Below, in pieces: positions 50,291 to 51,048 of a stretch of 64,000 nt of DNA. Each line of letters starts with the position of its first letter. Within the stretch, counting starts at the first letter, position 1. Source of the DNA: Psychromonas sp. SA13A (GTDB lineage: Bacteria; Pseudomonadota; Gammaproteobacteria; Enterobacterales; Psychromonadaceae); the NCBI RefSeq assembly GCF_011378715.1, contig NZ_WTKU01000002.1:62001-126000 (forward strand), given 5' to 3'. The notes under the pieces are model-generated. The model worked only from the letters and a program-made list of their open reading frames with translations, was not told where the DNA came from and ran no database searches. The position numbers were made by a program, and so were the translations under genes.

Positions 50291-50318
50291 TTGTATTGCC
50301 AAAAGATCCCCCTATAAT
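50291..50318 (+). promoter_or_regulatory. promoter of yhhQ
   Basis: TTGTAT (50291-50296), 16-bp spacer, TATAAT (50313-50318). Transcription would begin near 50325, about 20 bases before the riboswitch aptamer. Confidence 0.6.
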
Positions 50319-50345
50319 ATGCGACCCCATTTGGGATAAATAATA

Positions 50346-50382
50346 AGCGGGTTCCCTCACCCCGTTGTCATATATAAAAAGG
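50346..50382 (+). promoter_or_regulatory. class I preQ1 riboswitch (candidate)
   Basis: Compact aptamer layout: P1 stem AGCGGG/CCCGTT (50346-50351, 50361-50366), loop TTCCCTCAC, and an A-rich tail ending AAAAAGG (50376-50382). The GG of the tail, which is also the yhhQ ribosome-binding site, can pair with loop CC to form the H-type pseudoknot, so ligand would lower translation. It closely follows the Thermoanaerobacter class I example in layout (GGGU, C-rich loop, CCCC, A-rich AAGG). Confidence 0.8.
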
Positions 50383-50388
50383 TACAAT

Positions 50389-51048
50389 ATGTTATCACTT
50401 TCAAACACGCAAATTCGCCGTGCTATTACGCTATTGGTTGGATTTCACATCATTATAGTTTGTGCTAGTAATTACCTAGTTCAGCTACCTTTTACTTTAT
50501 TCGGTTGGCATACAACTTGGGGCGCATTTAGTTTCCCTTTTGTATATTTAGCAACAGATTTAACAGTAAGAATCTTTGGTCAGAAAGATGCTCGTCGCAT
50601 CATTTTTAAAGCAATGTTACCCGCATTGATAGTGTCCTACGTGATCGGTGTTTTATTCCATCAAGGCGTATTTCAAGGTATGGACGCACTGGCTGAATAT
50701 AATAGCTTTGTATTGAGGATTGCAGGGGCAAGTTTTGCTGCGTATCTTTTTGGACAGCTTTTAGATATTAAGGTATTTGCAAATCTGCGTTTAACTAAAA
50801 GCTGGTGGGTTGCACCTACCGCATCAACTTTATTAGGTAACCTTCTTGATACCCTAGTCTTCTTCTCACTCGCCTTCTATGCATCAACGGACAGTTTCAT
50901 GGCTGAAAATTGGCCTGAAATTGCAATGGTGGATTATGGATTTAAACTATTAGTTAGTTTGTGTTTATTCCTACCTGCCTATGGTGTGCTATTAAAAGTA
51001 TTAGAGAAGCGGATCATCAAATTACCTGCACAATCAGCCATTGCATAA
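50389..51048 (+). CDS. yhhQ: 7-cyano-7-deazaguanine/queuosine precursor transporter YhhQ
   Basis: 219-residue six-helix inner-membrane protein of the COG1738 family. It imports preQ0 or preQ1 for queuosine synthesis. FHIIIVCASNYLVQLPF, SFPFVYLATDLTVRIFG and the terminal KLLVSLCLFLPAYGVLLKVLE are typical. ATG 50389 is the start: AAGG is six bases upstream and the preceding sequence is the riboswitch, so an in-frame TTG at 50365 is excluded. Single-gene unit. Confidence 0.92.
   Translation: MLSLSNTQIRRAITLLVGFHIIIVCASNYLVQLPFTLFGWHTTWGAFSFPFVYLATDLTVRIFGQKDARRIIFKAMLPALIVSYVIGVLFHQGVFQGMDALAEYNSFVLRIAGASFAAYLFGQLLDIKVFANLRLTKSWWVAPTASTLLGNLLDTLVFFSLAFYASTDSFMAENWPEIAMVDYGFKLLVSLCLFLPAYGVLLKVLEKRIIKLPAQSAIA

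Follow-up and report, generated by a model that had tools for sequence, protein, structure and literature searches.

In the 64,000-nt stretch of Psychromonas sp. SA13A DNA analyzed here (the window), an open reading frame on the forward strand encodes a YhhQ transporter, which takes up precursors of the tRNA base queuosine (Table 1). Its identity rests on profile matches (NF008406, 350 bits with a cut-off of 252 bits; TIGR00697, 192 bits; Vut_1, 125 bits), in agreement with the target gene named in an earlier note on this DNA, and the closest named relatives are Psychromonas. The 5' leader of this gene contains a 37-nt element (positions 50346-50382, forward strand) located 6 nt upstream of the yhhQ ATG codon and ending in AAGG, the Shine-Dalgarno (SD) sequence, which bears out the claim of the note that an aptamer-like element of this length runs exactly into the ribosome-binding site. 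Its DNA reads, in order, AGCGGG-TTCCCTCAC-CCCGTT-GTCATATAT-AAAAAGG, exactly 37 nt, and the corresponding RNA AGCGGG UUCCCUCAC CCCGUU GUCAUAUAU AAAAAGG.

Table 1. Features of the yhhQ leader and gene, in positions of the window
Feature	Position	Strand	Basis
-35 candidate TTGTAT	50291-50296	+	16-nt spacer to TATAAT
Probable -10 box TATAAT	50313-50318	+	Sequence reading; same place in several close relatives
P1 helix, 5' strand AGCGGG	50346-50351	+	Pairs with 50361-50366; three outer pairs vary two-sidedly in 42 leaders
Pyrimidine-rich aptamer loop UUCCCUCAC, 9 bases	50352-50360	+	Loop conservation; predicted roles by correspondence with PMC10622847
Predicted anti-SD CCU in the loop	50355-50357	+	Correspondence with PMC10622847
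Predicted preQ1 specificity base C50360	50360	+	Equivalent to C15 in wild-type E. coli numbering, which is position 14 in the crystal construct (PMC10622847)
P1 helix, 3' strand CCCGUU	50361-50366	+	Covariation in 42 leaders; minimum-energy fold
False start codon TTG; overlaps the 3' strand of P1	50365-50367	+	Most relatives lack an open frame here, usually with a stop at -15
L3 linker GUCAUAUAU and A-run AAAAA	50367-50380	+	A-run conserved, linker length variable among leaders
A-run AAAAA, predicted in the P1 minor groove	50376-50380	+	Role from PMC10622847
A50379, counterpart of the preQ1-contacting SD adenine of E. coli	50379	+	PMC10622847
Shine-Dalgarno AAGG	50379-50382	+	Invariant in 42 leaders
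P2 helix, 3' strand A50380/G50381/G50382, paired with U50357/C50356/C50355	50380-50382	+	Double change at C50355-G50382, where U-A replaces C-G in other families of the order
yhhQ, 7-cyano-/7-aminomethyl-7-deazaguanine (preQ0/preQ1) transporter, 219 aa	50389-51048	+	Profile matches

The ORF finder had given an upstream TTG codon as the start of yhhQ. In a relative that is 98% identical (L010), and likewise in most relatives, an in-frame stop lies 15 nt upstream of the ATG codon, and the length of the L3 linker differs out of frame between species; for these two reasons the TTG codon is regarded as a false start, as the earlier note had maintained. Further upstream, the probable -10 box and its -35 candidate would place the start of the yhhQ transcript near position 50325. 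This promoter was not reported by a consensus promoter scan, because its -35 hexamer matches the consensus at only three of six positions. A short CCC..GGG hairpin was observed at positions 50325-50335, the probable 5' end of the transcript, and the leader L018 carries at this end a different sequence that could also pair (CUUCC..GGAA). Because a scan of the yhhQ leader found no terminator-like site, translational control was favored over transcriptional control, and transcription attenuation was rejected on the same ground.

The anatomy of the element is that of a type III class I preQ1 (preQ1-I) riboswitch. The P1 helix has 6 bp including one G-U pair, within the 5-6 bp of this type, and is followed by UU at 50352-50353; the short pyrimidine-rich loop UUCCCUCAC carries AC directly upstream of the P1 3' strand; the A-rich tail AAAAAGG (50376-50382) ends in the SD, which is complementary to the loop (P2); and the element precedes yhhQ in a gammaproteobacterium. 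The type III riboswitch of the E. coli yhhQ leader was crystallized with preQ1 in a study that also reports one-to-one preQ1 binding (KD 58 nM) and translational repression, which reached 6.1-fold in cells (PMC10622847). The E. coli leader, ATTGGGTTCCCTCACCCCAATGGTTAATCAAAAAGGTACAATATG, and that of the window have an identical nine-base loop, A-run, SD and GGTACAATATG start context, and they share the specificity C preceding the 3' strand of P1, the use of the SD as P2 strand, the 6-nt SD-ATG spacing and the target gene. They differ in the P1 helix (AGCGGG/CCCGUU in the window, AUUGGG/CCCAAU in E. coli) and in the L3 linker, of 9 nt in the window and 8 nt, GGUUAAUC, in E. coli. Type I and type II preQ1-I riboswitches (RF00522) have in common with the element the H-type pseudoknot formed by a hairpin and an A-rich tail and the control of a queuosine-pathway gene, but they show a longer loop and another loop consensus. 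The preQ1-II (RF01054) and preQ1-III (RF02680) classes share the ligand, and class II also masks the SD, but both are larger and adopt other pseudoknot folds. The element is a type III preQ1-I riboswitch, a real but ordinary member of an already known subtype, which a review describes as based on 293 sequences, nearly all of them from Pseudomonadota (PMC11625349). The proposal that a class I preQ1 riboswitch lies at this site is therefore supported and can be narrowed to type III, all the sequence features that could be tested being present.

To follow the element across species, yhhQ loci were collected by protein similarity. Nearly all of these protein-defined loci have the motif at the right place, in genera such as Psychromonas, Shewanella, Ferrimonas, Photobacterium, Vibrio, Oceanospirillum, Halomonas, Pseudomonas, Stutzerimonas and others, and the core recurs before yhhQ across the Gammaproteobacteria and in two Desulfobacterota. 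The loop is exactly UUCCCUCAC in 62 of the 82 distinct yhhQ leaders and UUCCCUAAC in 15 more, and AAAAAGG remains constant while the L3 linker varies in length. Among 42 aligned leaders, the outer P1 pairs showed two-sided changes (GC/CG, AU/UA and others), with a covariation score for P1 of 0.231 versus 0.075 +/- 0.013 (sd) in shuffles and 42 two-sided cells versus 17.9, and the score fell when the P1 strands were slid. Two further members of the class (L131 and L132) have an A-U pair in P1 where all 42 aligned leaders have G-C.

The P2 helix is invariant among these 42 leaders and never varies among the close relatives of the window, so that support for it comes from elsewhere in the order. 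Other families there combine the loop UUCUCUNAC (UCUCU) with a tail AAAAAGA, and the pair equivalent to C50355-G50382 is U-A in 12 loci (7 distinct sequences) from two families, U with G (wobble) in 6 further loci and C with A (mismatch) in one, counts that were enriched by a pattern search and include many closely related rows, L030 being the case found without enrichment. Because MAFFT had aligned the tail wrongly in alignment A2, these pairs were counted by anchored text matching. This two-sided change is natural-variation support for P2, which most leaders carry without variation, and it agrees with the view of the earlier note that the ribosome-binding site is itself a strand of the pseudoknot. 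The same comparison bears on the idea that the site is a DNA operator, or some other element, with an inverted repeat bound by a protein. Although the GGG/CCC repeats inside GGGTTCCCTCACCCC would suit such an operator, the position of the element is locked to the SD, AAAAAGG stays constant next to a linker of changing length, and in other families the pairing of the SD strand shows covariation, which is not required of an operator; we give this explanation practically no chance, and the lowest of those considered.

As for chance occurrence, GGGTTCCCTCACCCC is found only once in the 4.57-Mb genome, in the yhhQ leader and on the correct strand. With up to two mismatches allowed there was only one further match, which has two mismatches, compared with two such matches for a backwards control pattern. 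A covariance model made from the 42 leaders matched the element with 44.8 bits (E = 2.9e-8), partly by construction as the window's own sequence is in the model; the next-best site scored 19.7 bits (E 0.14), and that of yhhQ is the only confident one in the genome. When 369 genomes of the class were sampled, confident matches (E <= 0.0015) appeared in nine, including this one, always before a yhhQ-like gene; another match in the class (L133, E 0.006) was discarded, none of the three frames read showing a gene downstream. The folding energy of the element was ordinary (z = 0.25), an expected result for a stem of 6 bp with its specificity in the pseudoknot, and secondary structure alone would therefore have missed it.

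The next-best site belongs to the asnB leader (L123; G000:C23:44600-44639, minus strand) and was rejected as a preQ1-I riboswitch, since, as followed into relatives, its loop has no preQ1-I signature and conservation is absent at the base that precedes the 3' strand of P1. This leader and those of close Psychromonas relatives (L137-L143) present a hairpin with compensatory changes, and its loop, ACUUU or ACCUU, is complementary to the SD AAGGU, so that it is a candidate for a pseudoknot masking the SD.

The earlier note had proposed a search with the Rfam model RF00522 as a check. RF00522 gave no match to the element at E <= 10 in searches of 91 bases, of 1501 bases or of the whole genome, and its gathering cut-off of 39 bits was not reached. 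The E. coli yhhQ leader, used as a control for which a crystal structure exists, was missed as well, and the Ignatzschineria yhhQ leader (L114:739-783), with the other class I design, was detected with 51.8 bits. Given that RF00522 is blind to the E. coli leader, it does not cover type III and a low score refutes nothing, so the proposed check turned out to be uninformative. The models for preQ1-II and preQ1-III gave no Rfam match at the element, and nearby matches to other models (MIR7723, rliG, GibS and others) were ignored because they fell far under their cut-offs. In Ignatzschineria, the RF00522-type preQ1-I element occupies the same position in place of type III.

Genes for QueC, QueF and Tgt are present in the genome, which indicates that the cell both makes and uses preQ1 and that the transporter serves as a salvage route. 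We infer the ligand, the binding contacts and the direction of regulation from the E. coli homologue, and translational feedback on yhhQ is the most likely outcome. When preQ1 is scarce, the tail would be free and the SD exposed, and the transporter would be translated. Once preQ1 is bound, C50360 would pair with the guanine-like face of the ligand, the other edge of which would be read by the SD adenine A50379; the A-rich tail would pack along P1, and the CCU of the loop would pair with the AGG of the SD, excluding the ribosome and decreasing the uptake of preQ0 and preQ1. We consider it very probable that the yhhQ leader harbors a type III switch through which preQ1 masks the SD and lowers uptake.

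The pseudoknot could nevertheless form free of ligand, and what can be read directly from the sequence is the fold alone, which would also suit a hairpin or pseudoknot that masks the SD constitutively, e.g. a thermosensor-like one in the cold-adapted Psychromonas, and keeps yhhQ expression low without sensing preQ1. This alternative appears very improbable, because the loop positions outside P2 (the UU, and the AC next to the 3' strand of P1) match the paired bases in conservation and correspond to ligand contacts in E. coli (PMC10622847), and because the core is shared by mesophiles, E. coli and Pseudomonas among them. Slightly less probable still is a riboswitch of the same fold tuned to preQ0 rather than to preQ1. 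YhhQ transports both compounds and favors preQ0, and earlier in-line probing had left the ligand open, but the E. coli element, with the identical nine-base loop, favors preQ1 over preQ0 about 138-fold (PMC10622847).

Some leaders depart from the common arrangement. Extra hairpins within the L3-tail region were observed in three Psychromonas sisters (L011, L012 and L013), in a Thiotrichaceae MAG (L107) and, as a possible one only, in a Shewanella MAG (L051); their sequences are GUGGC..GCCAC, GAGAU..AUCUC and CCGUGAAAACGG, with the loop and AAAAAGG retained. Psychromonas sp. SP041 is among the carriers of such a hairpin. Leaders with the UCUCU loop and the AAAAAGA tail (L030, L181-L189, L191 and L199) have a downstream AGG in AAAAAGAUAGG or AAAAAGAAGG. 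This AGG may be the real SD, the P2 strand and the SD being then partly separated. Whether the type III aptamer tolerates both a stable L3 hairpin and a main SD shifted 3' of the P2 strand, as in AAAAAGAUAGG or AAAAAGAAGG together with the UCUCU loop, is close to an even question, and we lean slightly against it. In the two Desulfobacterota, Desulfopila aestuarii (L081) and Desulfogranum mediterraneum (L094), a type III element accompanies a yhhQ gene 65-71% identical to that of the window, which suggests that gene and switch were transferred together. L3 hairpins and a shifted main SD are not noted in the passages of PMC10622847 and PMC11625349 consulted here, and these two features, the presence in Desulfobacterota and the subtype swap in Ignatzschineria may be new.

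The literature searched contains no earlier description of the Psychromonas copy, which is new, although the kind of switch is already known. The finding supplies the correct yhhQ start and adds a regulatory annotation to the genome of a marine Psychromonas. Since type III is overlooked by the current Rfam model, this switch goes unnoticed in automated annotation, even that of E. coli. If the shift of the main SD beyond the P2 strand is true, ligand sensing would be partly decoupled from SD masking in the lineages that carry it.
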